Below are positions 12,152 to 25,832 of a stretch of DNA of 55,764 nucleotides, piece after piece. Each line of letters begins with the position of its first letter. Position 1 is the first letter of the stretch. Position numbers and translations under genes: made by a program. The stretch lies in contig JABFRT010000045.1 of NCBI GenBank assembly GCA_013141015.1, positions 1-55,764 on the forward strand, given 5' to 3'. The notes beneath the pieces were generated by a model. It saw only the letters and a program-made list of their open reading frames with translations. It was not told the origin of the DNA and searched no databases. This DNA comes from Hyphomicrobium sp. GTDB lineage: Bacteria > Pseudomonadota > Alphaproteobacteria > Rhizobiales > Hyphomicrobiaceae.

Positions 12152-12224
12152 TGCGCGGAGCCGGAATCGAACCGGCGACCAACGGCTTAGGAAGCCGCTG
12201 CTCTATCCACTGAGCTACCCGCGC
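12152..12224 (-). tRNA. tRNA-Arg (anticodon CCU)
   Basis: The minus strand folds as a cloverleaf: 7-bp acceptor GCGCGGG with TCCGCGC (one G-U), D stem GCTC/GAGC, anticodon stem GCGGC/GCCGT with loop TTCCTAA (anticodon CCU), a 5-base variable loop, T stem GCCGG/CCGGC with TTCGATT, and discriminator A. CCA is not encoded. It would decode AGG, a codon seen often in the structural genes although rare in most GC-rich bacteria, which suggests codon-usage compensation. Its first ten bases overlap the methyltransferase 3' end. Confidence 0.95.
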
Positions 12225-13601
12225 TCTGTCGTCCCACCGTGTAGTATCCACTCGTGTAGTAGAGCGCAAGCAACGTAAGCAACTTGCGGGACTACCGTGT
12301 TCCCAAGCGCCTTTACGCGCTGCGGCCGCCCGGATCCCCTGGGCGGGGAGACGATCATCCGCGCGGGCTCGTAGTGGTGGGGGTAGGCGAACCGGGGGCG
12401 GGCCAGTCCACCCGATCGGCAATCCCATGAACAACTCCAGCCACTCCGGGTTCGGCACCAGGCCGCTCCGCATCCGCGTTCGGCGCCCCGACAACCCCAA
12501 CGTCTCCCGAAGTGCGTCGGTGAGCGACGTCCCAGCGTGGGCCCCCGAGCCAGGCAGGCGCCGGGACCCCGCCGAGTTCGCGTCCCCCGCCACCAGCGTG
12601 GGCCACAACGAGTACTCGCTCTCGCTTGTGGGGGGCTCCGACGTCGGAGGCGTGGATGCGGGTGGCAGCCACCTCGTAACCGAGGTCGGTGAGCCCGGAC
12701 CCGCCGAGTTCGCGTCCCCGCCACCAGCGTGGGCCACAACGAGTACTCGCTCTCGCTTGTGGGGGCTCCGACGTCGGAGGCGTGGATGCGGGTGGCAGCC
12801 ACCTCGTAACCGAGGTCGGTGAGCCCGGACCCGCCGAGTTCGCGTCCCCCGCCACCAGCGTGGGCCACAACGAGTACTCGCTCTCGCTTGTGGGGGGCTC
12901 CGACGTCGGAGGCGTGGATGCGGGTGGCAGCCACCTCGTAACCGAGGTCGGTGAGCCCGGACCCGCCGAGTTCGGCGTCCCCCGCCACCAGCGTGGGCCA
13001 CAACGAGTACTCGCTCGCTTGTGGGGGCTCCGACGTCGGAGGCGTGGATGCGGGTGGCAGCCACCTCGTAACCGAGGTCGGTGAGCCCGGACCCGCCGAG
13101 TTCGCGTCCCCCGCCACCAGCGTGGGCCACAACGAGTACTCGCTCTCGCTTGTGGGGGGCTCCGACGTCGGAGGCGTGGATGCGGGTGGCAGCCACCTCG
13201 TAACCGAGGTCGGTGAGCCCGGAGACAACAACGTCCAGGCCCCGCCGTACGAGTCGAGAAACGTTCTCAATCACCACCCCCTGAGGCCGGACGGCCTTGA
13301 TCACGCGGAGAGCCTCGAACCACAGGCCCGAGCGGGGCCCCTGGAGCCCGAGCCCGGCCGGGTTGGCCTGGATCAGGTCCTGGCACGGGAACCCGGCCAG
13401 GATGACGTCGACCGGCGCGAAGGCGCGGGGGTCGAAGGTGCGGATGTCTCCGTGCTTGGGCACGGCCGGCCAGTGGCGCTCGAGCACCCGCGTGCAGAAC
13501 GGGTCGAGCTCCACCTGCCACGCGGGCGACCACCCGCAACGCTCGGCCGCCAGGTCGAAGGACCCGATGCCGGCGAACAGGGACCCGAAGGTGATGGGCA
13601 T
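12215..13601 (-). CDS. C5-cytosine DNA methyltransferase with tandem repeat expansion and frameshifts
   Basis: A Dcm-type enzyme that methylates cytosine C5. It starts MPITFGSLFAGIGSFDLAAE (motif I), then DVILAGFPCQD with the catalytic PCQ (motif IV), VVIENVSRLV (motif VI) and ASDVGAPHKRERV (motif VIII); it ends with MGLPIGWTG, RVKALGNTVVPQVAYV (motif X) and a TAG stop inside the tRNA. Between 12581 and 13222 the motif VIII region is present in five tandem copies with small indels. A further frame change falls near 12390-12400. The ATG overlaps the upstream TGA. It probably protects phage DNA from host restriction; whether this allele is active cannot be judged. Confidence 0.85.
12581..13222. 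repeat. 132-bp tandem repeat array in methyltransferase gene (5 copies)
   Basis: Copies start at about 12581, 12713, 12843, 12976 and 13105; the last ends near 13222 where unique sequence resumes. The nominal unit is 132 bases, 44 codons, so each added copy keeps frame. Copies differ by single-base gains or losses, mostly in C or G runs, which look like read errors. The unit encodes GLTDLGYEVAATRIHASDV and the following motif VIII residues. Confidence 0.92.
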
Positions 13602-13861: not shown

Positions 13862-14013
13862 TCCGACCACTGGGCCTGGCACTCCGCGCGAGCGCGGCGA
13901 TCTGCGTCCTCGCGGGCGCGAAGCTTCCCGATGCGGTCGTGCTCCCGGAGGAGCCCGGAGACGCCCCGGGTGTTGCGGCGCTCGGGGTCGGCTCGCTTGA
14001 GGTTCTTGGTCAC
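13858..14013 (-). CDS. Small basic protein
   Basis: A 51-residue protein beginning MTKNLKRADPERRNTRGVSG with about one third Arg and Lys. The GTG start follows a strong GGAGG site at about eight bases and the stop overlaps the next start (ATGA). The composition suggests nucleic-acid binding, but there is no recognisable family. Confidence 0.55.
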   Translation of the reverse strand: MTKNLKRADPERRNTRGVSGLLREHDRIGKLRAREDADRRARAECQAQWSE

Positions 14014-14063
14014 TTGGCCTCCTCCCGAGTAGGGGTAACTTTGTGGAGTGGTTGTGTCGACTA

Positions 14064-14366
14064 CTAGAACGGGAACTGGATACCCGCCTCACGGAGGCGC
14101 TCGGTCGACGCATACCGGATCACGAACGGGTCGCGGGGGGACGGCACCACCTGCACGGCGTACAGGCCCCCCTGGTGGGGGGAAGAGGACCAGAACACCA
14201 TCACCGTGCTTTCGCGTTGGTGGAGACGTTCGGCCCACCGCGCGACGACTCGTTCGAGGTCGAGGTCGTCGGGCAAGCTGGCCATCGGCCGGCAGGTGCG
14301 GCGGCTGAAGCAGTCCTGGAGCGCGGCGGTGAGCCGCGCGAGGTGTACGAGGCTGGTGGGCTTCAC
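14064..14366 (-). CDS. Hypothetical protein
   Basis: A 100-residue protein beginning (V)KPTSLVHLARLTAALQDCF. The GTG start overlaps the stop of the upstream paralog-family gene (GTGA). Central VARWAERLHQRESTVMVFW and C-terminal YASTERLREAGIQFPF segments are seen. Unknown function. Confidence 0.6.
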   Translation of the reverse strand: MKPTSLVHLARLTAALQDCFSRRTCRPMASLPDDLDLERVVARWAERLHQRESTVMVFWSSSPHQGGLYAVQVVPSPRDPFVIRYASTERLREAGIQFPF

Positions 14367-14623
14367 GTCGCATCTCCGGCCGTGGCCAGCCACACGAGCG
14401 CCGCCTCGATAGCCTCGAGCGCGCGACCGTGGTACTTCTCGGCGGCGGCGGCGTACGCCTCCCGGTCGGGGTGGTAGGCGCCCAGCATGAGCGCCGCCTC
14501 GGCCGTGAGACCGCCCAGCCACTCGTCCAGGTCGTCCCGGACGTCAGCCAGGTCGAAATCGAACACCACGTCATCAGCGCTGCGGTCGCCGAAGGTGATC
14601 GACCAGAAGGTGTCGTAGTCCAT
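14363..14623 (-). CDS. Hypothetical acidic protein, paralog of 14705-14995
   Basis: An 86-residue acidic protein beginning MDYDTFWSITFGDRSADDVV. ATG 14623 has GGAGG seven bases upstream, which decides it over a longer in-frame GTG. Its first 32 residues match the neighbour at 14705-14995, and 88 bases are identical in both, so one arose by recent duplication. The C-terminal half is helical (AYAAAAEKYHGRALEAIEAAL). Function unknown. Confidence 0.65.
   Translation of the reverse strand: MDYDTFWSITFGDRSADDVVFDFDLADVRDDLDEWLGGLTAEAALMLGAYHPDREAYAAAAEKYHGRALEAIEAALVWLATAGDAT
14531..14618. repeat. 88-bp direct repeat, copy 1
   Basis: These 88 bases are identical to 14903-14990. They cover the shared N-terminal coding region of two adjacent paralogs. 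The perfect match in two genes that otherwise diverge suggests a very recent duplication or gene conversion. Confidence 0.93.
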
Positions 14624-14659
14624 CTCGTCCTCCACGCCCACCGTGCGGGATGCACGGGC

Positions 14660-14700
14660 CACCGACTCGACGGTGGGGCCCCGAAGGGCTGCACGACTGG
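14660..14700 (-). terminator. Possible UUCG hairpin after the 14705 gene
   Basis: In the 80-base gap between the two paralogs, about 20 bases past the stop of the upstream gene, the minus strand has GCCC-TTCG-GGGC, a stable tetraloop hairpin. There is no U tract, so it may be only a weak terminator or processing stem. No convincing promoter is seen in the same gap. Confidence 0.3.
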
Positions 14701-14704
14701 AGTG

Positions 14705-14995
14705 TTAGAGGTCATGCTCGAGGTACGGAGCCGACAGGACCTCCGCGAGGTCTGCGAGGACGCGGGCGTGGTAGTCCAGCGCAGCGTCTTCGTACTCGGC
14801 CCGGGCGGCGCGGTCGCGGAGGAACTGGATCGCGGCCTCGGTGGTGGCGCGGCCCAGCCACTCGTCCAGCCCGTCCAGCACGACGACTCCCTCGGAGTCG
14901 ACGTCGTCCCGGACGTCAGCCAGGTCGAAATCGAACACCACGTCATCAGCGCTGCGGTCGCCGAAGGTGATCGACCAGAAGGTGTCGTAGGTCAC
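14705..14995 (-). CDS. Hypothetical acidic protein, paralog of 14363-14623
   Basis: A 96-residue protein. After the (V)TYDTFWSITFGDRSADDVV start it carries an 11-residue insert (DSEGVVVLDG region) absent from its paralog, then DEWLGRATTEAAIQFL and a helical C-terminus (YEDAALDYHARVLADLAEVL). The GTG start overlaps the upstream stop (GTGA). The acidic, helical nature would fit a DNA mimic or a small binding protein, but nothing proves this. Confidence 0.65.
   Translation of the reverse strand: MTYDTFWSITFGDRSADDVVFDFDLADVRDDVDSEGVVVLDGLDEWLGRATTEAAIQFLRDRAARAEYEDAALDYHARVLADLAEVLSAPYLEHDL
14903..14990. repeat. 88-bp direct repeat, copy 2
   Basis: Identical to 14531-14618; see that entry. The repeat lies in the same relative place in each paralog. 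Confidence 0.93.
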
Positions 14996-15231
14996 GTGGC
15001 ACCGACCCTGACTCGGGCCTCGGCCGCGCCACCGGGGCAGGCCCGGACGAGGTCCGCCCACGCTGCGGCGGTAGCCTCCCGCAGCACCGCAAACTCTCGG
15101 CCGTCCAGGATGGCGGCGGCGAGGCCGACGTCGATGCGCGCGCCTGCGCATGCGCCGTCCCACGCTGCCGCCTCATCCGAAGCGGCCTCGCGATAGACGC
15201 GTACCAAGCGGCTGATCTCTGCACCTGACAT
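14992..15231 (-). CDS. Hypothetical protein
   Basis: A 79-residue Ala-rich helical protein beginning MSGAEISRLVRVYREAASD. ATG 15231 is favoured by AGGAG upstream; an in-frame start at 15288 would overlap the preceding gene by 17 bases. Unknown function. Confidence 0.55.
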   Translation of the reverse strand: MSGAEISRLVRVYREAASDEAAAWDGACAGARIDVGLAAAILDGREFAVLREATAAAWADLVRACPGGAAEARVRVGAT

Positions 15232-15271
15232 GGGGGGCTCCTGTGCGGCTCGCGCCGCGGTTGGGAATGGG

Positions 15272-15538
15272 CTAGCCGACCTCGACACCGACGTCGCCGA
15301 CGCGGACGATGTCGTGCACCTCGTGGGTGCCGGTGTACCCGACGAGGTAGAGCCACTCGTCGCCTGCGTCGTCGGTGACTCGGTGGACCGTGAGGTCCGG
15401 CCAGGTGACCACCGGCTCGGGGAGGTCCTCCAGCTCGAGGTTAAGGCTGTACCCCCGAGCGACGAGGGTGTGGTACGCGTGGTACACCGCCCGCTCCTGG
15501 CGGAGGAGCTCGCGGGTGGTGATGTGGTTGCGGTTCAT
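15272..15538 (-). CDS. Hypothetical protein
   Basis: An 88-residue protein beginning MNRNHITTRELLRQERAVYH. The C-terminal half is a run of beta strands (PDLTVHRVTDDAGDEWLYLV, then THEVHDIVRVGDVGVEVG). ATG 15538 overlaps the upstream stop (ATGA). Unknown function. Confidence 0.6.
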   Translation of the reverse strand: MNRNHITTRELLRQERAVYHAYHTLVARGYSLNLELEDLPEPVVTWPDLTVHRVTDDAGDEWLYLVGYTGTHEVHDIVRVGDVGVEVG

Positions 15539-15855
15539 TCGGCCTCCGTGAGCAGTTCCACCTTGAGCAGTTCCAGAACTCGGGCGGTCACGGCCGCCCA
15601 GGACTTGAGTGGGCGGCGAACCCGCGACCACGGGTACGGCGCCCGCTTCCGAGCCTCTGCGTAGTGGTTCCACTGCTCGGGCGGCCCGCCGGCACAGCCG
15701 AAGCTGTACCACCCGCGATCCAAGCACGCGAAATAGCGGTGCGGGCTGGCCCAAACGTTGTCGCGTACCACCACGTGAGCGTAGGCATACTTGGGGCTCT
15801 TACGCTCGGTTTCCACGGTTACCACCAGCGGGCCGGACGTGAATGTGTGCGCCAT
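15535..15855 (-). CDS. Hypothetical protein, paralog of 15855-16211
   Basis: A 106-residue protein sharing with its upstream neighbour the start xHTFTSGP, a central YSFGCAxGP..xWxHY segment, and a C-terminal RRPLKxWAAxTAxVLxLL. The two were made by tandem duplication and have diverged. TGA and ATG overlap by one base (TGATG). No known family recognised. Confidence 0.65.
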   Translation of the reverse strand: MAHTFTSGPLVVTVETERKSPKYAYAHVVVRDNVWASPHRYFACLDRGWYSFGCAGGPPEQWNHYAEARKRAPYPWSRVRRPLKSWAAVTARVLELLKVELLTEAE

Positions 15856-16211
15856 CACTCGGTCCCCTGGTTCTGCAGCAGTCGGAGCACCTCGGCGGTC
15901 AGGGCCGCCCAGTGCTTCAAGGGGCGGCGCCCGCCACCCTCCCCCCCCGGCGCGCGCGCCTTCGCCACGGCGTAGTGGTAGTGGTCCCACTCCGCGGCCG
16001 GGCCACTGGCGCAGCCGAATGAGTAGCGGTTGTAGCGGTTGGCGGTTTCGCTGATCCACAGGTTGGCGAAGAACGTCCACGTGGACGGGTACCCGTCCCT
16101 GCCCGGCCTGATGCTGACACGGACCATCACCCACCGTGATCTGGTGCAGGATGAGATGTGGTCGTAGGGCGTGATCTCGGCCGTGATCGGGCCGGACGTG
16201 AATGTGTGCAC
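15855..16211 (-). CDS. Hypothetical protein, first gene of the leftward unit
   Basis: A 118-residue paralog of the next gene. GTG 16211 follows AGGAGG. It is the first reading frame of the long leftward unit, directly after the repeat-rich intergenic region, so it is probably among the earliest genes expressed. It has a longer aromatic middle (STWTFFANLWISETANRYNRY) than its paralog. Function unknown. Confidence 0.65.
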   Translation of the reverse strand: MHTFTSGPITAEITPYDHISSCTRSRWVMVRVSIRPGRDGYPSTWTFFANLWISETANRYNRYSFGCASGPAAEWDHYHYAVAKARAPGGEGGGRRPLKHWAALTAEVLRLLQNQGTE

Positions 16212-16850
16212 GTTTCGCCTCCTGGGTTGGGGTTGGGGTTCGGCGGGGTTCCTCCCCCCGCCCGCCTTCCACTATCTGGCCACTCCTTCCCCGTCCACCC
16301 GTGTTTCGGGGATGCCGGATGGTACCTGGTGTTGTGGCGGTTGCTGGCCTGCTACCGCGTGGCAGGATTGTGGTTGGTATCCTGGCACGATTCCTGCTGG
16401 GCCACCACTTCCCGGCGTTGCAGGCGGATCATCAGCGGGTGTTGTGGTTCCTCCCCACTGTCCTCCCCACCTGTTTTCGGCCTCGAACCTGGGTTTTCGC
16501 GTTCCTCCCCACTGGCCTTTTTTGGGTACCAACACCCCGGTAGATCCCCCTCCCCGGATCGGGGATCGGAGTGGAGAATCTGTGTCGGGTGTGTGGAACC
16601 CTGTGGCACCTCTGTGGAGGATCGGGATCCCCCTGGGGGAGGGGGTTGGGTGGGGTGGATAGGGTGTAGGAGCAGTGGGGAGGAAACGGGAAAGCGTAGG
16701 TAGGAACGGGATCTGTGGTGGGGAGGAGAGTGGGGAGGCGGAGGGGAGGAGGAGGGGATAGGTGGGGATGTAATAGATCTTGATCAGTTAAGATAAGTTA
16801 GAACCTACACACTTCCGGGGCCACATTCAGGGCTCCGGGCGGAGGGTCTG
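16212..16850. other. Divergent intergenic region: candidate origin/control region
   Basis: 639 bases without a convincing gene, between the leftward unit and a rightward gene. TCCTCCCCAC occurs at 16449-16458, 16461-16470 and 16503-16512. Its complement GTGGGGAGGA occurs at 16675-16684 and 16718-16727, with one-base variants at 16730-16739 and 16741-16750. The top strand is pyrimidine-rich in the left part and strongly purine-rich from about 16620. An AT-rich tract (about 16768-16802, containing TAATAGATCTTGATCAGTTAAGATAAG) follows. Repeats plus an AT-rich tract at a divergence point fit a replication origin or a shared control region. Confidence 0.55.
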
Positions 16851-17147
16851 GTGGAATACATCGGCGGAAAGGAGCGTTACGACAGGCTCTTGAAGGGGCT
16901 GGCCCTCGGGATGACCCGTCGTAGGGCGTGTGATTATGCCGGTTTGTCCGTGGACGCGCTCGCGCTGGTGATGTCCGCCGAGTATCCGAGCGCCGAAGTG
17001 TCGGCGTTGATCGACACGATTCGGCGAGCGGAGGTCCACTCGCTGGTTTTCGACGCGACCGCGCTTGCGACGCTGACGCCCTCCGCCCTCCGGGAGCGTC
17101 TCCTCGCCCTCGAGCAGGGGGAGGAACCCGGACCAGACCTCGACTGA
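16851..17147 (+). CDS. Small HTH protein, possible terminase small subunit
   Basis: A 98-residue protein starting GTG with GGAGG eight bases upstream. Residues about 12-40 (RLLKGLALGMTRRRACDYAGLSVDALALVM) match the helix-turn-helix pattern common in phage small terminase subunits and homeodomain-like regulators; the rest is helical and could mediate oligomers. No small terminase is next to the large subunit, so this is a candidate. A regulator of the adjacent control region is the main alternative. Confidence 0.5.
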   Translation: MEYIGGKERYDRLLKGLALGMTRRRACDYAGLSVDALALVMSAEYPSAEVSALIDTIRRAEVHSLVFDATALATLTPSALRERLLALEQGEEPGPDLD

Positions 17148-17168
17148 CCCACCCAGCGCCTCGTATAA

Positions 17169-17189
17169 GCCCCGCTGACGCTTCGGGGC
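17169..17189. terminator. Hairpin between convergent genes
   Basis: GCCCCG (17169-17174) and CGGGGC (17184-17189) form a perfect 6-bp stem with a 9-base loop. It lies 22 bases after the rightward stop and downstream of the leftward gene ending at 17256, so it could serve both directions. There is no T tract. Confidence 0.4.
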
Positions 17190-17255
17190 CCCTACCCCAC
17201 CCGAAAACCGTCCCGAGAGCCCACAGGGGCCACAGCGGGTCCGGAATCGGTATCC

Positions 17256-17363
17256 CTAGGGCAGCAACGCCGGGTCACCGGTGGACCGCCACTCGTGGGC
17301 CCAGTAGGCCTCCTCGACCAGCCGCGTGGCCGCGGCATCAACCAAAACGTGCCATTCTGTCAC
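17256..17363 (-). CDS. Small hypothetical protein (35 residues)
   Basis: A short frame beginning MTEWHVLVDAAATRLVEEAY. GTG 17363 overlaps the stop of the upstream gene (GTGA), the coupling style used across this genome, and it ends with TAG before the hairpin at 17169-17189. Unknown function. Confidence 0.45.
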   Translation of the reverse strand: MTEWHVLVDAAATRLVEEAYWAHEWRSTGDPALLP

Positions 17364-17650
17364 TTCGCACCTCCCGCGAGCGCAAGCTCGCGCCGCTGCG
17401 CGACGATCGCAGCGGCGCGCGATGCGTAGGCTTGGAACCCGCCGACGGTTGACACGCCGTCGGCGTCGACCCGCCGCACGGTGTAGCGGCGCCCGCGCTG
17501 GTTCGGCCCCTGCTCACTGCTCACGAACAACCATCCGTCGCCGGAACGCTGTAGGGTGGAGTAGCAGATCCGGGAGCGGAAAAACCGCATCGTAGCCGGT
17601 GAAAACCAGATCGGGTGATCCGACTTGATCTTGTTCCACGTCGCGTTCAT
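17360..17650 (-). CDS. Hypothetical protein downstream of leader element A
   Basis: A 96-residue basic protein beginning MNATWNKIKSDHPIWF. ATG 17650 has GGAGGT five bases upstream. The 5' leader carries a strong hairpin element also found before the gene starting at 19442, so the two may be co-regulated. C-terminal YASRAAAIVAQRRELALAGG is helical. Unknown function. Confidence 0.6.
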   Translation of the reverse strand: MNATWNKIKSDHPIWFSPATMRFFRSRICYSTLQRSGDGWLFVSSEQGPNQRGRRYTVRRVDADGVSTVGGFQAYASRAAAIVAQRRELALAGGAK

Positions 17651-17720
17651 GTAACCTCCAAACAGAGCTTGATCGCTCGCTTTCGCGCTGGTGCTCGTCA
17701 CACCAGCGCGAACGAGAACG
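17651..17720 (-). promoter_or_regulatory. Structured 5' leader element A
   Basis: On the minus strand this reads CGTTCTCGTTCG, a hairpin, then CGAAAGCGAGCGATCAAGCTC, then GGAGGTTAC and the start codon. The hairpin arms CGCGCTGGTG (17684-17693) and CACCAGCGCG (17701-17710) pair perfectly around a 7-base loop, and the flanks can extend the stem with two mismatches. The same 21-base and 12-base flanks occur in element B (19443-19513), but the stem there has other bases that still pair. This is likely a conserved RNA structure acting on the downstream gene. Confidence 0.7.
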
Positions 17721-17729
17721 AACTAGCCG

Positions 17730-18023
17730 CTACGGCAGCGATCCGGGTGCGGGGTAGCGCCCCTCGCGCCGACCCCATGCCAGGTGGTACCGCTCACTGG
17801 CCCGCCTGCAGTGTACGCACGTGAACAGTCTACCCCGCCACTCCGCCACCACCCGGTGACACCACTCGGCCGCCGGGCGGCCCCGGAGGCCGTGCGGGGC
17901 CGAGAGAAGCGCCGCACGGCGCATGTAGGCGTCGAGCCGTTCCGGGGCTTGCCACCCGGCGCCACATTCCGGCTCGTCCATAGGGCCGCGGAGCCAGTGA
18001 ATGACCTGTCGGGCGGGGCTCAC
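17730..18023 (-). CDS. Hypothetical Cys/His-containing protein
   Basis: A 97-residue Arg-rich protein. CGAGW near residue 20, AEWCHRVV and FTCVHCRRASERYH near residues 55-80 could bind zinc. GTG 18023 overlaps the stop of the Gp88-like gene (GTGA). The TAG stop directly precedes leader element A. Unknown function. Confidence 0.55.
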   Translation of the reverse strand: MSPARQVIHWLRGPMDEPECGAGWQAPERLDAYMRRAALLSAPHGLRGRPAAEWCHRVVAEWRGRLFTCVHCRRASERYHLAWGRREGRYPAPGSLP

Positions 18024-18745
18024 GTGAGCACCGCGCCGATCCGGCGGTCCGTGCCGCCGTCCGGCCGGAACGCCACAACCAGGTCGGGCCGATCCCAGCA
18101 GATCCGGCAGGTGGCGCACGTGGCCCCGCCCGGCAGTTGCGCGCGGCACTTGACGACGGGGGCCGAGGCCTCCCGCCGTGCTCGCGCCACCACGTCAGGC
18201 GCGAAGCTGGGGAGCACGATCACGCCCCAGCGGCCCGAGTAGTCGCTGCGCCGGATCGCCACACCGATCGCCCGGAGGCGATCGAGCCATGGGCCCACGT
18301 CGCGCGGGTGGTGGTGGGTGTACGTCCACGCGATCGGCGACTCGACCGACCCGCCGAACGGAGTGAGCGCCGCGATCAGATCGGAGCAGTAAGCGTCGAT
18401 CTCGGCGCGGGTAGCGCCGAGGTCCCCGGAGACGTGCAGCCGTGCGAGCCGGCCGGTGATCTGGCCAGCGCGGACCGCGGCTACAGCGCCGACCACGGCC
18501 GGGTAGTGGGCAGCGCTCGCACGCACCGCGGCCATGTATGTGCGCCGTTGCTGGGCGTAGCATCCTGCGCCCAGGTAGGGGCAGCTGGCGGGGCACGTGG
18601 ACCCGACGGGCCGGTAGGTACCGGGAGAGTCAGTCTTCGCGTTCCCGGCGCCGAGAACGGCCCCTAGGGACCGAGCTTTCTCGTATACCTTCCCAAGCGC
18701 CCGGATCTTGCAGAACAACGCGTGCAGATCACTCGGCGCGGTCAT
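18020..18745 (-). CDS. Gp88-like cysteine-rich phage protein
   Basis: A 241-residue protein resembling the phage Gp88 family of unknown biochemistry. Features are GNAKTDSPGTYRPVG, then TCPASCPYLGAGCYAQ (about residues 50-65), LARLHVSGDLGATRAEIDAY (about 100-120, the family RxHxSGD-like motif), WTYTHHHP (about 140), and a C-terminal CATCRICW that may form a second metal site. Cysteine spacing suggests an Fe-S or zinc cluster. The start overlaps the next gene region by 17 bases. Confidence 0.55.
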   Translation of the reverse strand: MTAPSDLHALFCKIRALGKVYEKARSLGAVLGAGNAKTDSPGTYRPVGSTCPASCPYLGAGCYAQQRRTYMAAVRASAAHYPAVVGAVAAVRAGQITGRLARLHVSGDLGATRAEIDAYCSDLIAALTPFGGSVESPIAWTYTHHHPRDVGPWLDRLRAIGVAIRRSDYSGRWGVIVLPSFAPDVVARARREASAPVVKCRAQLPGGATCATCRICWDRPDLVVAFRPDGGTDRRIGAVLT

Positions 18746-18980
18746 GGCGAGCCTCCCGACCGTGCACGGTCACGATCTGCACGTCGGTCCCGACGCCCTG
18801 CTCGACCGCGCGCGCCGCGGCGCGCTCAGCGCTTGTGCGCCGCGAGAACACTTGCTCCAGATCGAGCCAGCGCCCGATCTGGGGATCCAAGTACAACACA
18901 CGCCACACTGTGCACCTCGGTTGTTTGGGTTCACCGACTACGTAATCACGTAGTCGGTCGGTGTCCACGGTAGTCGACAC
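18729..18980 (-). CDS. Hypothetical protein
   Basis: An 83-residue protein. It reads MSTTVDTDRLRDYVVGE at the start, then a strand-rich middle (CTVWRVLYLDP) and a helix (RTSAERAAARAVEQGV). There is no strong ribosome-binding site at GTG 18980; a GTG at 18968 is possible. A perfect inverted repeat lies inside codons 8-16. Unknown function. Confidence 0.5.
   Translation of the reverse strand: MSTTVDTDRLRDYVVGEPKQPRCTVWRVLYLDPQIGRWLDLEQVFSRRTSAERAAARAVEQGVGTDVQIVTVHGREARHDRAE
18934..18957. repeat. Perfect 10-bp inverted repeat
   Basis: CCGACTACGT (18934-18943) and ACGTAGTCGG (18948-18957) are exact complements around AATC. It sits just inside the 5' end of the gene at 18729-18980. It could be an operator or an RNA hairpin that affects that gene's translation. 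Confidence 0.6.
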
Positions 18981-19019
18981 TTTGTCGGGTCGGCGAAAAC
19001 CGGCCCGAGGGAGTATCGG

Positions 19020-19442
19020 CTACCGCAACCGGCGGCACCCGGAGGCAGCGACCCTACGAAACCCGCCTTCCGTGAGGTCGGACGGGATGTCAACCACCAC
19101 AAACCTCCCCCCGTCCTCCACGACGGTCACGGTCGCGTTGCGCGGCAACCACGGGTTGCTGATCCTGTCTCCGACCCGAAGCTCCCCCGGCTTGCGGCGG
19201 GGTGCAGCCCCTTCGGCGCGCGGCGCCTTGGGCGGCTTCGGGGTAGTGGGGGCGATGATCACGCTCCGGAGCTTGTTGTAGCGCAGGGTCGCCGAAGCGA
19301 TCCCCATATCCCGAAGCTCCGCAGCGCTGGTGTACTGGCCCGTGAGCGCGTCTCGCCAGTCTGTAGCGCAGTGACCGGTGAAGGCATCGAGCGCCATCGC
19401 GGCCGACTTGTAGTCCGCGCCGTACGCAGGTACGAGTGTCAT
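19020..19442 (-). CDS. Hypothetical protein downstream of leader element B
   Basis: A 140-residue protein beginning MTLVPAYGADYKSAAMALDA. GGAGGT lies six bases before ATG 19442. The N-terminal part is helical. A basic Pro/Lys/Arg linker (PTTPKPPKAPRAEGAAPRR) separates it from a small beta domain (RVGDRISNPWLPRNATVTVV). It is the second gene headed by the structured leader. Unknown function. Confidence 0.6.
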   Translation of the reverse strand: MTLVPAYGADYKSAAMALDAFTGHCATDWRDALTGQYTSAAELRDMGIASATLRYNKLRSVIIAPTTPKPPKAPRAEGAAPRRKPGELRVGDRISNPWLPRNATVTVVEDGGRFVVVDIPSDLTEGGFRRVAASGCRRLR

Positions 19443-19513
19443 ATGTAACCTCCTATCGAGCTTGATCGCTCGCTTTCGGCCGGGTAGGCTGGCTACCCGG
19501 CCGAACGAGAACG
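19443..19513 (-). promoter_or_regulatory. Structured 5' leader element B
   Basis: Second copy of the leader seen at 17651-17720. The 21-base block on the plus strand at 19458-19478 equals 17665-17685, and the 12-base block at 19502-19513 equals 17709-17720. The stem is CGGCCGGGTAG (19477-19487) with CTACCCGGCCG (19493-19503) around GCTGG. The inner stem differs from element A at most positions but still pairs fully, which points to selection on structure. It starts right after the stop of the upstream gene. Confidence 0.7.
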
Positions 19514-19515
19514 GT

Positions 19516-19791
19516 CTAGAACCGGGAGGACCGAAGTTCGCCACCGTTGGTATGAAGGGTGACGAACGCATCCGACGGAGCCGACAGGACTCGGGCCGCC
19601 CAGTCTCGGGCCGCACCCGCTGCGTCCGCCCCGTCAAAGTCCGCGTGGGACACTGTAGCGGGACACTCATCCGGGGTAACCGCCCACCACCACACCAGCC
19701 GTGCGCCGCCGGCCGGTGGGAACCCGCGCCCCGCGATCAGGGTGAACCCGGTGGGTTGGGTCTGGACGTCGCACCAGAGGCGGGGGTTCAC
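19516..19791 (-). CDS. Hypothetical protein
   Basis: A 91-residue protein starting with GTG in a GTGA overlap. It has a beta-rich first half (GFTLIAGRGFPPAGGARLVW) and a central DFDGADAAGAARDWAARVL helix. Unknown function. Confidence 0.55.
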   Translation of the reverse strand: MNPRLWCDVQTQPTGFTLIAGRGFPPAGGARLVWWWAVTPDECPATVSHADFDGADAAGAARDWAARVLSAPSDAFVTLHTNGGELRSSRF

Positions 19792-20060
19792 TCGGCACCC
19801 GGGTGCGGCGCGACGCGCCGGCCGCAGTCCGGGGCCGGATCCCACCCGATCGCGCACGGGATCGGAACCCGCGGGGTACGGTGGGTCTCGGATGCGATCC
19901 CGGCCGCGACAGCCCTGCAGGCGCGCGCGTCCGTGAGGATCGGGTGCCGCAGCGCTGCGATCTGGTCCGCGCTGCAGTGTGCGAGCGTTTCGGCGGCGGC
20001 GGCCCGGACGGCCGGCCGGTCCGGCCCGTCCACGATCATAGCTAGATCTCGAGCGGTCAA
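19788..20060 (-). CDS. Hypothetical protein
   Basis: A 90-residue protein. I chose TTG 20060 because AGGAGC lies five to six bases upstream; a GTG at 20144 in frame would read through a palindromic regulatory-looking stretch. Helical N-terminus (DRPAVRAAAAETLAHCSADQI). Unknown function. Confidence 0.5.
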   Translation of the reverse strand: MTARDLAMIVDGPDRPAVRAAAAETLAHCSADQIAALRHPILTDARACRAVAAGIASETHRTPRVPIPCAIGWDPAPDCGRRVAPHPGAE

Positions 20061-20088
20061 GGGAGCTCCTGTTGCCGATGTGGCAAGG

Positions 20089-20104
20089 TGTTCCACGTGG
20101 AACG
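20089..20104. promoter_or_regulatory. parS-like palindrome upstream of the 20060 start
   Basis: TGTTCCACGTGGAACG contains the perfect 14-bp palindrome GTTCCACGTGGAAC at 20090-20103. It matches the chromosomal parS consensus TGTTTCACGTGAAACA at 13 of 16 positions. It lies 29 bases upstream of the TTG start. No ParA or ParB gene is visible in the window, so an operator for a phage or host factor is at least as likely. Confidence 0.4.
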
Positions 20105-20150
20105 TTCCACGCGTGGTGAGGCGGGTCGGTCGACCGGCGCTCACTGGTAG

Positions 20151-20166
20151 GCACCCGAGGGGGTGC
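20151..20166 (-). terminator. Hairpin after the 20184-20489 gene
   Basis: GCACCC (20151-20156) pairs with GGGTGC (20161-20166) around GAGG. It lies 18 bases past the stop of the leftward gene ending at 20184. There is no U tract, so terminator activity is only inferred. Confidence 0.35.
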
Positions 20167-20183
20167 TCACCCGTGAGGGCCGG

Positions 20184-20489
20184 TTAGATCCCGTACCCGT
20201 ACTGGGCAGCGAGCCAGGACTCCCCGACCGCTACGTGGTACCGATCAACCGAGCGCCACCACCCGAGGAGGGTGCGCCGGGTGAGGGTGGGGGGCTGGTC
20301 CCCGGGGACCGCGACCACCGGCGGCCGGTGCCCCGGGGTGCAGCCGGCTGCGGACCGGGTGCGCTCCCGCCGCGTGGCGTCGCTCTCGGGCGCTGCGGCG
20401 CGCTTGACGGCGCGATGGTGCGCGGCCCAGCCGTTCGTGGTGCGAGCGGCGGCGGCGGTCCGGAGGAGTGGCGGCTGGGCGGTTGTCAT
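20184..20489 (-). CDS. Hypothetical basic protein
   Basis: A 101-residue protein rich in Ala, Arg and Thr, beginning MTTAQPPLLRTAAAARTTNG. ATG 20489 follows GGAGA. It ends TLLGWWRSVDRYHVAVGESW and onward. It is the first leftward gene from the small divergent region at 20490-20695. Unknown function. Confidence 0.5.
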   Translation of the reverse strand: MTTAQPPLLRTAAAARTTNGWAAHHRAVKRAAAPESDATRRERTRSAAGCTPGHRPPVVAVPGDQPPTLTRRTLLGWWRSVDRYHVAVGESWLAAQYGYGI

Positions 20490-20695
20490 TTCATCTCCGG
20501 TTGGTTGGTTGGGGTTGATGGTAATGGGGGGGGGGGGGCTCTCGCTCCCCACATCTACTCAATAACCCCTAGGGTAGCCGCCACTCCCCGTGACAAATCG
20601 TGACAAATGGGTCCCATCTCGAGGGGAAAAACCACACCACCCATTGCCCACAACCCACAACACAGTTACTCCACCAAAACCACGCCAGGAGACCC
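20490..20695. other. Divergent intergenic region with G13 run and direct repeats
   Basis: This spacer separates a leftward gene from a rightward one. It contains a 13-G homopolymer (20526-20538), a tandem CGTGACAAAT repeat (20589-20598 and 20599-20608), and ACCCACAAC-type direct repeats around 20640-20665. No clear -35/-10 pair is visible. The tandem decamer is the best operator candidate. Confidence 0.5.
20589..20608. repeat. Tandem decamer CGTGACAAAT x2
   Basis: Two exact copies in direct succession, one helical turn apart, in a divergent promoter region. The spacing is typical of a repressor binding as adjacent dimers. Confidence 0.6.
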
Positions 20696-21055
20696 ATGAA
20701 ACCCATCCGGGCAGCGACGAAGGCGGAGCGAGACCGAGCGCTCCGGGCCATGCGAACCGCGAAGCTCCGGACGTGGGAGGAGGTGCCAGGCTTCTCGGAC
20801 CGGACGTTCCCCCTGACGCCAGAACTGGACGCCGCGCTGGGCCCCGCTCCGCCCCCAAGGGACCCGGATGCCGCAGTTAGGCCCAGGCGCCTGGAGTCCA
20901 GCTTCTCGACGGGCATCTTTCGTGGCGAGATGCTTGAGTTACTGGAGGCTCTCACCGGGCCGTTCAAACTCATCCTCACCGGGCCGGGTCAACCCCACAA
21001 CCAACCCCACAACCAGCCACACAACCAACCCCAGGATACCCATGGGCTCGACTGA
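20696..21055 (+). CDS. Hypothetical protein with HNQP repeats
   Basis: A 119-residue protein beginning MKPIRAATKAERDRALRAM, with AGGAG before ATG 20696. The middle contains WEEVPGFSDRTFPLTPELDAA, the C-terminal part ESSFSTGIFRGEMLELLEALTG, and the tail has the tandem unit QPHN three times. Unknown function; the charged helical start may bind nucleic acid. Confidence 0.55.
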   Translation: MKPIRAATKAERDRALRAMRTAKLRTWEEVPGFSDRTFPLTPELDAALGPAPPPRDPDAAVRPRRLESSFSTGIFRGEMLELLEALTGPFKLILTGPGQPHNQPHNQPHNQPQDTHGLD

Positions 21056-21092
21056 CCGAGGCATCGGAAAGAAACCACACCAGGAGCCGCGG

Positions 21093-21761
21093 ATGACCAC
21101 GACCGACGACACGAGCAGCAAGACCAAGACCGAGGGATTCTGGAGTATGAGCTTCGCGCAGGCGATCGGCCTGGTCATCGACAAGGCTGAAGCAATGCGG
21201 CGCAAGGGGTGGCCGAAGGAGTACCTGGTGACGCTCGACTACACCGTGAAGCCTGGGCCCCGGGGCCTGCCAAGGCTCGAATACACCAAGGGCCTCCTCC
21301 AGTGGAGGGGCGAGATCCTGGGGTACACCGAGTACAAGCTGAACAACGATGACGCGTTCGCCAACGACTGGGAGCCGGCCCGGCCCAACGCCCCGAGCGC
21401 GGCCGACGATGCCGCCCCCGGCACCACGTTCAGGGTCGAAACGTACATCGGGAACATCGAGGTCGACCAGACCGTAGTCGGCAAGGTCTTCAACATCGAA
21501 CTTGGCGGCTGGCCGTTCAAGGGCGTCGAGTTCACCCAGGGCCCGTTCACGGTCCACCAACTCGAGCAGGACGACTGCCCGGTGCCCGCCGGGTGGTGGG
21601 TGTGCCACGAGGCCTTCACCCTGCCGGACGGGACCACAGGCCACCGGAGGGTCAGCATCCATCCTGACCCCCAGGTGGCCCTCCGGGTCGGGAAGGCCAA
21701 CGCCAACAAGTACCAGCCGCCGCTGGTGATCCCTACCCGGGCCCAGGGCTATCTCTTTTAG
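21093..21761 (+). CDS. DUF2829 (Tad2-like) domain protein
   Basis: A 222-residue protein with AGGAG before ATG 21093. Residues about 15-100 fit the DUF2829 pattern: SFAQAIGLVIDKAEAMRRKGW (the family SFGxAL...RxGW start), a strand region, and a closing NNDDAFANDWEP (family DxxAxDW). Some DUF2829 proteins are Tad2, which sequesters the Thoeris signal gcADPR. The C-terminal 110 residues (from TFRVETYIGNIEV) are an unrecognised beta-rich domain, so this is longer than classical Tad2 (about 90 residues). It is convergent with the terminase and overlaps its stop. Confidence 0.5.
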   Translation: MTTTDDTSSKTKTEGFWSMSFAQAIGLVIDKAEAMRRKGWPKEYLVTLDYTVKPGPRGLPRLEYTKGLLQWRGEILGYTEYKLNNDDAFANDWEPARPNAPSAADDAAPGTTFRVETYIGNIEVDQTVVGKVFNIELGGWPFKGVEFTQGPFTVHQLEQDDCPVPAGWWVCHEAFTLPDGTTGHRRVSIHPDPQVALRVGKANANKYQPPLVIPTRAQGYLF

Positions 21762-23284
21762 GTGAACCGCCCCCCACCGATCTGGCTGAGGATCGACTCG
21801 AGCGCGTTCATCAGCCGGCTCGCTCCGCTCGCGCGGATGTTCTGGGGCTGCCAGAAGATGAAGGCCTGGCTCTGGGTGTCGACGTCGTCGTCGTGCTTCG
21901 CGTGGGGGAAGGAGGCCATGTTCTCATTGAACTCCGACACCCACGGGGCGCCAGTGGGCGTCGACACCTGCCCGGCCTGCCAGATCGGGGTCGACAGCTC
22001 GGCGCGCGACTTCTTGTCGCCGTACTTGTCAGGGTTGAAGGGAATGATCGTCGGGATCACGAGCCTCAAGTCGTCGATCAGCGCCGCGCCGTTCGCCTTC
22101 TCCTCGATGACGACGGCGTTCGGGTTGTGCTTCCTGCAGAACAGCTTGAGCTTCTCGCGGGTCTCGACGTACGACATCCGCGCGCTGACGCGGTCCAGGA
22201 TGTAGTAGTTCGACCACCCGTGCCTCGCGATGGCGAGGAAGGTGACCATGTCCGACGTCTTTGACTTCTTGAACGTCGCGTCGACGCTCACGATCGTCTG
22301 GGTGTAGGGGTGCGGGGGGCGCTGCGGGTCCCAGTCGAACCGGTACTTCAACCAGTCGCGCTGGAAGGTGCCGCCCGTCGCCGACACCGGTCGCTGGAGA
22401 TACAGCGCGTTCCACGACCGCTCGTCGAGCACCGCGCGGATCTCCCGCAGGGCCTCGAGGGGGTACCTGGCGGGGTCGAGGGCCTCGCCGATCTTCCGGA
22501 ACGGCTCGTCCTCCTCGGCGATCGCCGGGTAGTTCAGGATCTTCCAGTCGACCTCCCCGCGCTTCTTCTGCTCGAGGGCGCGCCCCAGGATGTCGTCGAG
22601 GTGCCACCGGGTGTGCATCACCATGATGCCTCCGCCCGGGGCCAGGCGGGTGAAGGCGGCGGTCCGGAACCACCCCCACTTCGACTCGCGGATGATCTCC
22701 GAGTCGGCCTCGACCTCGTTCTTGAACGGGTCGTCGATGCCGAGGTGGTGCGCACCACGGCCGGTCAGGGGTCCGCCGACGCCGGTGGCCTTCAGGTTGC
22801 CGCCACCCTCGATGTCCCACCACTCGACGCCGTCCTTGCCGCCTTCCATCGGGGCCAGCAACGGGAACAGGTCGAGGACATCGTCGCGGGTGCGTCGTGC
22901 GTCGCCAGACATCTCGTTCGCGAGTTCCTGGCCGTAGGTGGCCAGGATGACTTCGTGCTCCGGGTTGTTCCCCAGGTGGAACACTGGGAACTTCCTGGAC
23001 ACGATCTCGGACTTTCCGTGCCGTGGAGGGGCGGTGACGAGCAGCCGCGGAGCCTTCATCTCCGTGATCGCGCGGCTGTACTCCTCCATCTCGTGGCACA
23101 GCTCGCGGTGGAACCACCCGGCCGTGTACGAGGGCTTGGTCAGGCGAACGAACTCGAGGAGGTGGCGCTTCGCGATATCTCGATTCGGGGACTCGAATTC
23201 GAGGTTCTCGCAGGAAATACGCCAGTTAAGCTCCTCCCGAAGCTCCCGTTTTGCCTTTTCGAGCTTCGTTTCCCTTCCCGGCAT
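21758..23284 (-). CDS. terL: Terminase large subunit
   Basis: A 508-residue packaging motor. The ATPase part has Walker A APPRHGKSE (about residue 86), HHLGIDDPF as Walker B (about 185) and IMVMHTRWHLDD as the coupling region (about 230). The nuclease part starts TIVSVDATFKKSKTSDMV with its first Asp (about 335) and ends with a DDDVDTQSQA acidic site (about 468). The start overlaps the portal gene by 59 bases. It translocates and cuts DNA into proheads. It is on the strand opposite to the capsid and tail genes. Confidence 0.95.
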   Translation of the reverse strand: MPGRETKLEKAKRELREELNWRISCENLEFESPNRDIAKRHLLEFVRLTKPSYTAGWFHRELCHEMEEYSRAITEMKAPRLLVTAPPRHGKSEIVSRKFPVFHLGNNPEHEVILATYGQELANEMSGDARRTRDDVLDLFPLLAPMEGGKDGVEWWDIEGGGNLKATGVGGPLTGRGAHHLGIDDPFKNEVEADSEIIRESKWGWFRTAAFTRLAPGGGIMVMHTRWHLDDILGRALEQKKRGEVDWKILNYPAIAEEDEPFRKIGEALDPARYPLEALREIRAVLDERSWNALYLQRPVSATGGTFQRDWLKYRFDWDPQRPPHPYTQTIVSVDATFKKSKTSDMVTFLAIARHGWSNYYILDRVSARMSYVETREKLKLFCRKHNPNAVVIEEKANGAALIDDLRLVIPTIIPFNPDKYGDKKSRAELSTPIWQAGQVSTPTGAPWVSEFNENMASFPHAKHDDDVDTQSQAFIFWQPQNIRASGASRLMNALESILSQIGGGRFT

Positions 23285-24662
23285 TGGACTTCTCCGCGGT
23301 TTCGCCTGGTTTCACTGGCTTGTCCGAGATCTTCGACAGCCGATCGACGTAGATCTCCTCGGACTTGTCCGAGAAGCGGCCCCTCGCGACGTCCCGGGGC
23401 GACAGGACCCCAGAGCGGAGCCGGATCTCGTCAGTTTCGGCGTGGATCTTGCAGGTTTCGGCCTTTTCCATGCCGGAAGGCTCGTCGAGGGGGTGGAATT
23501 CGATCTCTTCCACCTTCTTCCCCCTGTTCATGAGCCGGTAGAGGGTCATCAGCGGCCACCGGTTCTCCTCCTGGTAGTCAGCGATCTGCTGCCGGTGCAT
23601 CGCATGGCCGCTCTCTCCGTCCGAAGACAGGCCCCCGGGGCTGTTTCCGTACAGGACGATCTCCGAGTACCCCGAAACGGCCGCCAGCATCGACTTGGCT
23701 CCGCCCGAGAGCTCCTCGAACCCGGTCGGCGGGTTCGAGCGGTTCTCGTAGTCGTCCTCCTTGTCGACCACGATCAGGCCGAGAATCGACCGCGCGCGGT
23801 TGACGAGGTTCAGCTTCATCGTCAGGAACTTGGCCTCGTCGCCGGTCGCGATCATGTCCATGCCGGACACCTTCAGGACGGCCTCCCGGAGTTCCTGCGC
23901 GAGCGTGGCGCCGCCCTGCATTGTCTGGGTGAGACGCATGATCTCGTCCCAGATCACCTGGATCACGCTGTCGTCAGGCAACGCGGACCGCCTCGTGTAC
24001 GACGGGGGGTTCTTAGAGCCGCTGAAGACCGCGAGCCTGGACGCGTGGACGGTCGCCTGGAATCCGTCGCTGGTGATGTCCCACAACACGGGCCGCCTGA
24101 AGTAGGGGGACGTGATGTCCCGGTCCCACTTCCTGACACTCAGCTCACTGAAGTCGAACGTGTGGAGTGCGATCGGGTCGCCGACTCGCTTGAAGTCGAT
24201 GGGGTTGGCGAGGAAGGTCCTGTCACCAGGCTCCGACTCTCGGCCGGAGAACACGGGCAGGATGACGGCGTTGCCGCCAGCCCTCGCCCACTGCATGGCT
24301 TCTCGGGTCCGGCCCCAGACGTCGAGTTCGTCGTAGTTCTGCCCGTCGTTCACCCTCCAGCCCTTCCGGGTGGCCCTCAGCGGCAGCAGGTCGACGATCC
24401 TGCGGACGAGCCCGTTGTACCGGTATAGGATCTTGAGCCGCTGGTGGTCGAGCGGATCCCTGGCGATGTCCACGTCGGCCGACGCGCCCTTGTCCAGCGT
24501 CCTGGACCCGACCTGGGTGACAGCGTTCAGCACCGAGTCGAAGTTCGCCCGCCGGGCCGGGGCCGCGAACGCTGCGAACGGGCCGTCGTCGATGGGTGGA
24601 AGCTCCGCAGGACTCGCGCTCTGACCGTAGAAAGCGTCGACGATCCGCTTCATGAAGCTCAT
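23226..24662 (-). CDS. Portal protein (DUF1073 family)
   Basis: A 478-residue protein of the DUF1073 (HI1409-type) portal family, forming the dodecameric vertex for DNA entry. Typical segments are RYNGLVRRIVDLLPLRATRKGW (about residues 80-100), NAVILPVFSG, VLWDITSDGFQATVHASRLAVFSG, and LYGNSPGGLSSDGESG (about 360). The C-terminus is charged and Gly-rich. I chose ATG 24662; a TTG at 24686 is possible. It is transcribed leftward from the divergent region near 24700 and followed by the terminase. Confidence 0.92.
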   Translation of the reverse strand: MSFMKRIVDAFYGQSASPAELPPIDDGPFAAFAAPARRANFDSVLNAVTQVGSRTLDKGASADVDIARDPLDHQRLKILYRYNGLVRRIVDLLPLRATRKGWRVNDGQNYDELDVWGRTREAMQWARAGGNAVILPVFSGRESEPGDRTFLANPIDFKRVGDPIALHTFDFSELSVRKWDRDITSPYFRRPVLWDITSDGFQATVHASRLAVFSGSKNPPSYTRRSALPDDSVIQVIWDEIMRLTQTMQGGATLAQELREAVLKVSGMDMIATGDEAKFLTMKLNLVNRARSILGLIVVDKEDDYENRSNPPTGFEELSGGAKSMLAAVSGYSEIVLYGNSPGGLSSDGESGHAMHRQQIADYQEENRWPLMTLYRLMNRGKKVEEIEFHPLDEPSGMEKAETCKIHAETDEIRLRSGVLSPRDVARGRFSDKSEEIYVDRLSKISDKPVKPGETAEKSNAGKGNEARKGKTGASGGA

Positions 24663-24679
24663 CTTGACCCCTTGGAGGC

Positions 24680-24708
24680 TGGACAACTAGCCGATGGTCT
24701 AGTATACG
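24680..24708 (+). promoter_or_regulatory. Sigma70-like promoter for the late operon
   Basis: TGGACA (24680-24685) and TATACG (24703-24708) are separated by exactly 17 bases. Predicted transcription start is about 24714-24717, at or just before the ATG of the DUF2213 gene, so the first message would be nearly leaderless; no ribosome-binding site is seen there. On the other strand the same GTATAC palindrome gives TATACT (24706-24701), a good leftward -10 for the portal gene, though its -35 is poor. Confidence 0.55.
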
Positions 24709-24716
24709 ATTCTGGT

Positions 24717-25832
24717 ATGCCGACCAACACCCACATGTGCGAGATCCGGATGGACGAGGCCGAAGCGGGCTCGCCGGACACACTCGTTCGCGTGGACTAC
24801 AGCGGTGAGTTGAGCAGCCCGAAGCTGCGCGCCGACGGCTTCGTCGAGTTCGATGGCTTCGTCGCCACCGAGGGGATCCTCACGTACAACAGGGGCGGCA
24901 AGATCGTCCGCGAGTACGTCCCGGCGAGTACGCTCGAGAAGAGCATGGAGTCGCTGAAGCGGTGCGTGGTCACCCTTCGGCACCCGAAGCGCGACAAGCA
25001 CCGGGAGCTGGTGACCCCCGAGCACGTGCAGAAGCTTCAGGTCGGCGACGTCGGCACCAACGTGCGCATGGTCGATGTACGCGTGGCGGCCGACTTCGTG
25101 GTACGGTCCGACGGCGCCATCAAGTCGGTGATGGACGGGAAGACCACGCAGCTCTCCGCAGCGTACTTCCCGACGGTCGACCCGACCCCCGGGGTCAACA
25201 AGTACGGCACGTACGACTTGGTCCAGACGGACCGCAACTACAACCATGTCGCGCTCGTGGAATCCGCCAGGGGCGGCCGCGGGCTCTACGTCAGGACGGA
25301 CGGGAAGATGAACCAGAACCTGATCTCCCTCATCGCCATGCTCGCGATCACCACGAGGTTCGATTCCGACGACGACGCCGTCGACGCGATCTCGGATTCC
25401 GTGGAGAAGCTGATCGAGCAGAAGGACGCCGAGAAGGCCCGCGCGGATGCGGCCGAGGCCAAGCTCGCCGCGGCCGAGGCCAAGCTCGCCGACAACGAGA
25501 AGTCCGAGAAGGCTCGCACCGACGCTGCCGACCTCGAGCGCGTCTCGAAGATCGCCGAGCGGATCGGCGTCCCCTTCAAGGACGTGAAGCTTCGCGACCT
25601 GAAGCTGGCGGTCGCCCGCACGGTCATCCCCGACGTCAACGCCGACGCCGCCGACGCGTACATCGACGGCATCGTCACCGCCGCCGGGAGTTCGGACCCC
25701 CGGGACGCGTACCGCCAGGCCCAGAAGCTGGCCGGCTCCCGCGCCGACGCCGCCGACAAGCCGAAGGGCCGCCGGCAGTCGAACTACGTCAAGACGCTCC
25801 GCGCGGCCAACGCCGCGCTGCGGGAGGGCTGA
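24717..25832 (+). CDS. DUF2213 prohead protease/scaffold protein
   Basis: A 371-residue protein. Residues about 25-200 match DUF2213, a capsid maturation protease-like family: FVEFDGFVATEGILTYNRGG, PASTLEKSMESLKRCVVTLRHPKR, TQLSAAYFPTVDPTPG, and TDRNYNHVALVESARGGRG. The C-terminal half has AEKARADAAEAKLAAAEAKL, a long coiled coil typical of a fused scaffold. It begins the rightward morphogenesis operon. ATG 24717 has no ribosome-binding site, in line with a leaderless start. Confidence 0.82.
   Translation: MPTNTHMCEIRMDEAEAGSPDTLVRVDYSGELSSPKLRADGFVEFDGFVATEGILTYNRGGKIVREYVPASTLEKSMESLKRCVVTLRHPKRDKHRELVTPEHVQKLQVGDVGTNVRMVDVRVAADFVVRSDGAIKSVMDGKTTQLSAAYFPTVDPTPGVNKYGTYDLVQTDRNYNHVALVESARGGRGLYVRTDGKMNQNLISLIAMLAITTRFDSDDDAVDAISDSVEKLIEQKDAEKARADAAEAKLAAAEAKLADNEKSEKARTDAADLERVSKIAERIGVPFKDVKLRDLKLAVARTVIPDVNADAADAYIDGIVTAAGSSDPRDAYRQAQKLAGSRADAADKPKGRRQSNYVKTLRAANAALREG

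Follow-up and report, generated by a model that had tools for sequence, protein, structure and literature searches.

Two phage leaders with invariant flanks and a compensated inner stem: a candidate intercistronic RNA element

Two leaders on the minus strand of a phage contig, spaced 1.8 kb apart, carry invariant flanks around a hairpin top in which the letters have changed while the pairing has been kept. Judged from their sequences, both probably contain a small RNA control or processing signal, present in two copies in one phage. The contig, hereafter the window, is the whole stretch of DNA analysed (55,764 nucleotides) and was binned with an assembly of Hyphomicrobium sp. Taken as the whole aligned element up to the start codon of the following gene, the first leader (copy 1) spans 17648-17727 ahead of the gene at 17360-17650, and the second (copy 2) spans 19440-19520 ahead of the gene at 19020-19442. 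Both share one layout, which runs from CTAG and two free bases through a 12-nt 5' flank CGTTCTCGTTCG, a 9-base arm, a 5-base loop and the complementary arm to a 21-nt 3' flank CGAAAGCGAGCGATCAAGCTC; four or five mostly different bases then lead to the shared Shine-Dalgarno block GGAGGTTACAT at the start codon. In copy 1 these parts lie at 17709-17720 (5' flank, the 5' side of the lower stem), 17686-17708 (variable interior, a 9-bp distal stem with the loop GACGA), 17665-17685 (3' flank) and 17649-17659 (Shine-Dalgarno block). The corresponding parts of copy 2 lie at 19502-19513, 19479-19501 (9-bp distal stem with the loop CCAGC), 19458-19478 and 19443-19453, again on the minus strand. With up to three mismatches allowed, the 20-mer GAAAGCGAGCGATCAAGCTC occurred in the window at the two leaders only, and it gave no match in 100 shuffles. 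A first-pass annotation of the window had both leaders right in coordinates and letters.

The same annotation placed each leader after a stop codon and before the ribosome-binding site of a small gene, which holds at both copies; the order of stop codon, hairpin, GGAGG and start is identical. Copy 1 follows a small gene (17730-18023, minus) whose stop codon TAG lies 9 nt ahead of the hairpin. Copy 2 follows a reading frame of uncertain start (19516-19863, minus) whose stop is the TAG of the common CTAG, 2 nt ahead of the hairpin. The gene after copy 1 encodes 96 amino acids and matches the family DUF7447 / phrog_4655, and the gene after copy 2 encodes 140 amino acids without a Pfam or PHROG match. 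From CGAAAG to ATG one copy measures 35 nt and the other 36 nt, which shifts the reading frame of the common flank with respect to the gene, and conservation of the flank as coding sequence was rejected on this ground. A third gene between the copies (GTG start, 18729-18908, minus) has a hairpin of its own at 18933-18958, with 11 bp and a 4-nt loop, ahead of its GAGG; this hairpin is unrelated to the leaders and lacks their flanks.

The distal 9-bp stem is fully paired in both copies, with five pairs changed on both sides, four unchanged and none broken, and with a single G-U pair at the stem top in copy 1. Stems that differ yet pair perfectly in each copy, as described in the first-pass annotation, are thus confirmed, as are its identical 12-base and 21-base flanks and common start region. 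In the alignment of the two copies (flanks being columns 8-63 minus the interior), 14 of 23 interior columns differ against 0 of 33 flank columns. When partner columns were slid by one to three positions, 29-42% of cells were paired, against 100% in the true register. The probability that a random 9-base arm pairs with the copy-2 arm is about 3e-4, and if the same five sites were changed at random, standard pairs would be restored in about 4.5% of cases. Shuffling partners between the two rows equalled the observed counts in 13 of 500 shuffles. Perfect inverted repeats of at least 11 bp with loops of 3-10 number four in the window, both leaders included, against about 0.7 per window in 10 shuffles. 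All four fall within 17389-19505, one of them inside the gene after copy 1. It is very unlikely that the hairpins are accidents of composition.

A single comparison, between two rows from one genome, gives weak evidence for selection on RNA pairing. Between the copies 14 of 19 pairs are invariant, including all six lower-stem pairs, so the covariation bears on no part of the lower stem. The compensated changes are present, as first described; calling them a strong sign of RNA structure went too far for two sequences whose counts recur in 13 of 500 shuffles and for which template switching is possible. From these sequences an RNA role of both leaders is likely.

Template switching gives the first alternative to be weighed. 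A leader cassette may have been duplicated to a second gene, after which template switching at the inverted repeat rewrote one inner stem, by mutation and not by selection. The functional shared part would then be the flanks and the ribosome-binding block, and the rewritten stem would remain a perfect palindrome. In the part of the source consulted, such events are reported to make perfect stems and multi-base compensated changes in one step without RNA selection (PMC8794818). An untouched flank beside a rewritten interior is the expected trace of a single event of this kind, and within the hairpin and its flanks all 14 differences do lie in the interior, as one replacement would give. However, a template switch copies arm onto arm and does not by itself explain a new arm, and the lack of mismatches in both upper stems suggests maintenance. 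The window also offers no clear donor, the longest match outside being 11 nt, which is also the length most often found with 300 random 31-mers. Overall, this mutational origin is considered rather unlikely, though it is the most probable of the rival readings.

Folding extends the structure beyond the distal stem. The folding z-scores are -4.44 and -4.28, and none of 200 shuffles folds as well. Between the flanks, 12 nt from each are predicted to form a duplex of CGTTCTCG and AGCGAGCG that is interrupted by conserved U-C and G-A mismatches, and the full predicted hairpin has 21 positions per arm, comprising 19 standard pairs and two mismatches. A second small hairpin, GAGC-GATCAA-GCTC, competes with the lower stem and is 1.2-1.3 kcal/mol costlier than the extended form in both copies. 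In a 221-nt context most of the Shine-Dalgarno sequence is predicted to be paired in either copy, with unpaired probabilities of 0.02-0.41, and neither leader is therefore predicted to keep the ribosome site open.

These features would also suit a site bound by a putative RNA-binding protein, of the phage or its host, through which translation of both genes would be regulated together. Such a protein would read the invariant mismatched lower stem together with GATCAAGC, and the top would need only to be double-stranded. This agrees with a distal stem that is free in sequence next to flanks that are fixed, conserved mismatches included, and a ligand could choose between two structures that lie within about 1.3 kcal/mol of each other in both copies. 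Against it, neither of the two structures has a clear effect on access to the Shine-Dalgarno sequence, and both downstream genes lack an assigned function. Protein binding of this type is regarded as unlikely.

The closest described kind found for the leaders is the start-associated sequences (SAS) and extended start-associated sequences (ESAS) of cluster K mycobacteriophages (Pope et al. 2011). The 13-bp SAS, GGGATAGGAGCCC, occurs in 11-19 copies per genome, and ESAS are 17-bp imperfect inverted repeats in which the arm sequence is kept and for which there is little support for RNA pairing (PMC3203893). SAS and ESAS are also treated in PMC12699233, which together with PMC3203893 supplies the SAS definition used here. 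Like them, the leaders are short and repeated, contain inverted repeats around a variable spacer, and lie just upstream of the ribosome-binding site and start of unrelated phage genes; they precede non-structural genes, a description that here follows from gene size and place. They are nevertheless not members of ESAS/SAS. The inner arms of the leaders change at five of nine pairs with pairing kept, whereas ESAS arms keep their letters and departures do not in general support pairing. The best fit to GGGATAGGAGCCC has 5 of 13 mismatches in either leader, against a definition that allows at most two and places the SAS next to the start codon. In copy 2 this best fit falls at the Shine-Dalgarno sequence, TCGATAGGAGGTT, with GATAGGAG in common. 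The leaders, unlike SAS, carry GGAGGTTACAT and number only two copies. No named family was known to the first-pass annotation, which agrees with Rfam but leaves out this kindred group. What is new here against known start-associated phage repeats is pairing kept across changed arms, a novelty of modest reach.

By analogy with a role proposed for ESAS, the leaders could be DNA sites, either operators or promoters. They hold the same place relative to start codons, and ESAS too are inverted repeats near genes (PMC3203893). The ESAS of Adephagia are described as containing putative SigA-like promoters, with hexamers 17-18 bp apart, in the consulted part of a 2024 account that still calls the ESAS role unclear (PMC11373665). 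At the leaders no comparable hexamer pair was found, a search for sigma-70-like promoters having returned 0 sites in 14000-25000 with a simple E. coli-type consensus. At promoter spacing only the 3' flank and the Shine-Dalgarno block are invariant, and by eye these do not resemble -35 and -10 hexamers. Moreover, the arms, which would be the expected target of a dimeric protein, are the variable part. A DNA site is therefore held to be distinctly improbable. An integron attC-like site was likewise considered and rejected by eye, the core motifs of such sites appearing absent.

A strong GC-rich hairpin directly past a stop codon could also act as a transcription terminator or attenuator between genes. 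An intrinsic terminator has a T-run directly after the stem; in the leaders the stem is followed by AGCGAGCGATCAAGC instead. A terminator scan called neither hairpin and listed a 5-pair stem at 19524-19512 that overlaps the start of copy 2. Termination is thus the least credible of the readings weighed here, and very doubtful.

The reading tentatively preferred, on a model built from predicted folds and gene order, is that the leaders act in cis, as intercistronic elements of the mRNA that process or stabilize the message. It is favoured because pairing is kept in the changed inner stem (five both-side changes, none broken) while the flanks are fixed, and because position and orientation are the same in both copies. 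The folding z-scores, the different flank frames and the unrelated hairpin before the GAGG of the third gene point the same way, as do the missing T-run and the absence of sigma-70-like sites in 14000-25000. It is weakened because there are only two sequences with mostly invariant pairs and with counts that shuffles can equal, and because the Shine-Dalgarno sequence is mostly paired.

Messages of T7-type phages contain RNase III processing hairpins and 5' stabilizing stem-loops, and known RNase III substrates comprise about two helical turns with internal mismatches. The leaders resemble such hairpins in being intercistronic, upstream of the Shine-Dalgarno sequence and about two helical turns long with internal mismatches, a likeness that applies to the predicted fold; the predicted duplex, with its 21 positions per arm, is nearly continuous and has the length of such a substrate. 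This length and these mismatches count in favour of the processing or stabilizing role. We know of no RNase III processing hairpin with constant flanks and exchanged stems.

According to the proposed mechanism, a leftward and probably early phage transcript would run through each leader. Once past the upstream stop codon, this RNA would fold into the hairpin, the lower stem being built by the invariant flanks with their two conserved mismatches. The top would consist of 13 bp, the outer four pairs TTCG/CGAA being fixed and the inner nine variable. An RNase III-like enzyme may cut this hairpin, or the hairpin may block decay. The downstream gene would in this way receive its own hairpin-headed message, with the Shine-Dalgarno sequence 13-14 nt past the lower stem. 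A further and decidedly unlikely possibility is a constant-frame leader class, in which the invariant flanks would be recognized or processed and the duplex top would deliberately differ in each copy. If true, differing tops would stop copies on the same transcript from pairing with each other or from recombining away the intervening genes.

The surroundings of the leaders are largely of one orientation. In a crude gene call the minus strand carries every gene between 20489 and 278 apart from two weak ones (10967-11161 and 16851-17147), and across the contig join it also carries those between 55219 and 47905. This layout probably puts the leaders close to the beginning of an early transcript that runs leftward. 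On the minus strand ATTTGTCACG occurs as two directly repeated, abutting copies (20589-20608) within the divergent gap at 20.5-20.7 kb, and they may form an operator or promoter for that transcript. On both strands around this gap, gene starts are preceded by tracts rich in A and C with CAACC-like repeats, at 20499-20538 (minus), 20627-20664 (plus) and 20988-21036 (plus); these are perhaps unstructured translation leaders.

The Streptomyces phage Squillium (ON108650) has a gene homologous to that after copy 1, at 44.6% identity. Squillium likewise has small genes with repeated hairpins in the gaps, which are putative terminator-promoter elements, and 8 of 13 gaps measure 111-145 nt. Unlike the inner stems of the leaders, its hairpins largely keep their sequence (GGGCCCTTCGGGGCCC type), and they are accompanied by repeated TGTAGACT blocks. 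A covariance model of the leader, R1, found no match in the Squillium gaps.

The contig ends, 2-1609 and 54149-55764, overlap by about 1.6 kb at 97.5% identity with 34 gap positions in 1629, the differences being mostly gaps. This overlap indicates that the phage genome is circular, measures about 54.15 kb and carries some base errors at the contig ends. Family matches identified terminase, primase/helicase, single-strand binding protein, thymidylate synthase, Holliday-junction resolvase and head protease genes. The window also holds a single tRNA-Arg (CCT) at 12152-12224 (minus), a tandem array with a period of about 15 nt at 10973-11294, and a repeat family at 12490-13223 with spacings of about 131 and 262 nt. 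Two small genes, 14363-14623 and 14705-14995 (minus), share a nearly identical 94-nt stretch (98%) and, past the first two residues, the same protein start, YDTFWSITFGDRSADDVVFDFDL; they are probably a recent duplication.

The composition of the phage differs from that of its assembly. Its G+C content is 67.5%, against 59-60% in three stretches of the assembly, and the plain tetranucleotide correlation between window and assembly is 0.68-0.71, against 0.976 and 0.985 within the assembly. A background-corrected tetranucleotide measure gave 0.33-0.47, below several unrelated genomes (up to 0.68). Because of this difference the phage contig was probably mis-binned with its assembly, in which a 16S fragment is present that we take to be alphaproteobacterial. 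Searches among relatives of the assembly may consequently have covered the wrong lineage. No near relative was found among viral contigs with the gene after copy 2, the terminase or the primase as query; the gene at 23226-24662 retrieved one remote locus (23%), where the covariance model finds no leader. Megablast of 15000-25000 against phage records gave no match. The terminase matches 2031 phage records, all below 60% identity, and the 15 matches listed lie at 33-40%. At E<=1e-30 it matched 18 of 199 genomes, its own included, the others at 27-41% identity.

Additional copies with further covariation, which the first-pass annotation had named as support, were not found in the window, IMG/VR, phage and plasmid records or genome sets. 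Within the window, patterns and R1 recovered no leader beyond the two and their own reverse complements, and in its own assembly the leader was found in the window only. R1 was run on overlapping sets of 22 genus, 103 family and 398 phylum genomes, and the latter two sets returned the own genome only. Among the genus genomes 4 of 22 matched at E<=1, the own genome included. The other three, at 17.1-21.5 bits, were rejected as partial flank fits without the long paired top; one of them has a run around CAAGCTCTG and GAGGTTAC in common, but four bases replace the hairpin top, and it was taken as chance. Blastn of the leader against 100 genomes (its own and 99 relatives) gave something at E<=0.1 in 43, its own included, and none of the places listed outside its own assembly covers more than 49 of 89 bases.

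One pattern of two flanks, run on species genomes, gave 21 matches. All were rejected: they lie in stop-free frames of at least 152 codons, none scores above 15.3 bits, and inside TTCG/CGAA they have 0-3 contiguous pairs where the leaders have nine. The interiors of some of them fold alone, to -17.3 kcal/mol. Four DNA patterns in IMG/VR gave no further leader copy. Two had zero matches, and a third had one match, rejected as it is without the hairpin. The fourth, a 17-mer, had 15 matches, all in stop-free frames of at least 117 codons and none with GGAGG or AGGAG within 35 nt, and these were rejected as well. Against this rejection, R1 gives 19.9 bits to four near-identical stretches among these 15, which match the lower stem but have another, short top; they were read as coding, much of the score being the queried 17-mer itself. 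Blastn against phage and plasmid records gave matches of 18-26 nt only, in four and six records, respectively. Rfam found nothing at the gathering cut-off in the whole window except the tRNA, and with E up to 5 in 15000-21100 it gave one weak match elsewhere, at 15603-15654 (21.7 bits against a cut-off of 45). No published account of such leaders was found in the literature searched, part of which was covered by title and abstract.

Since no near phage relative was found in the collections searched, the absence of copies there does not show their absence in nature. Two copies in one phage contig for which no near relative was found are a lead, not a family. If real, the leaders would be a start-associated phage repeat that keeps RNA structure rather than sequence, unlike ESAS, and a compact module that would give one gene of an operon its own message.
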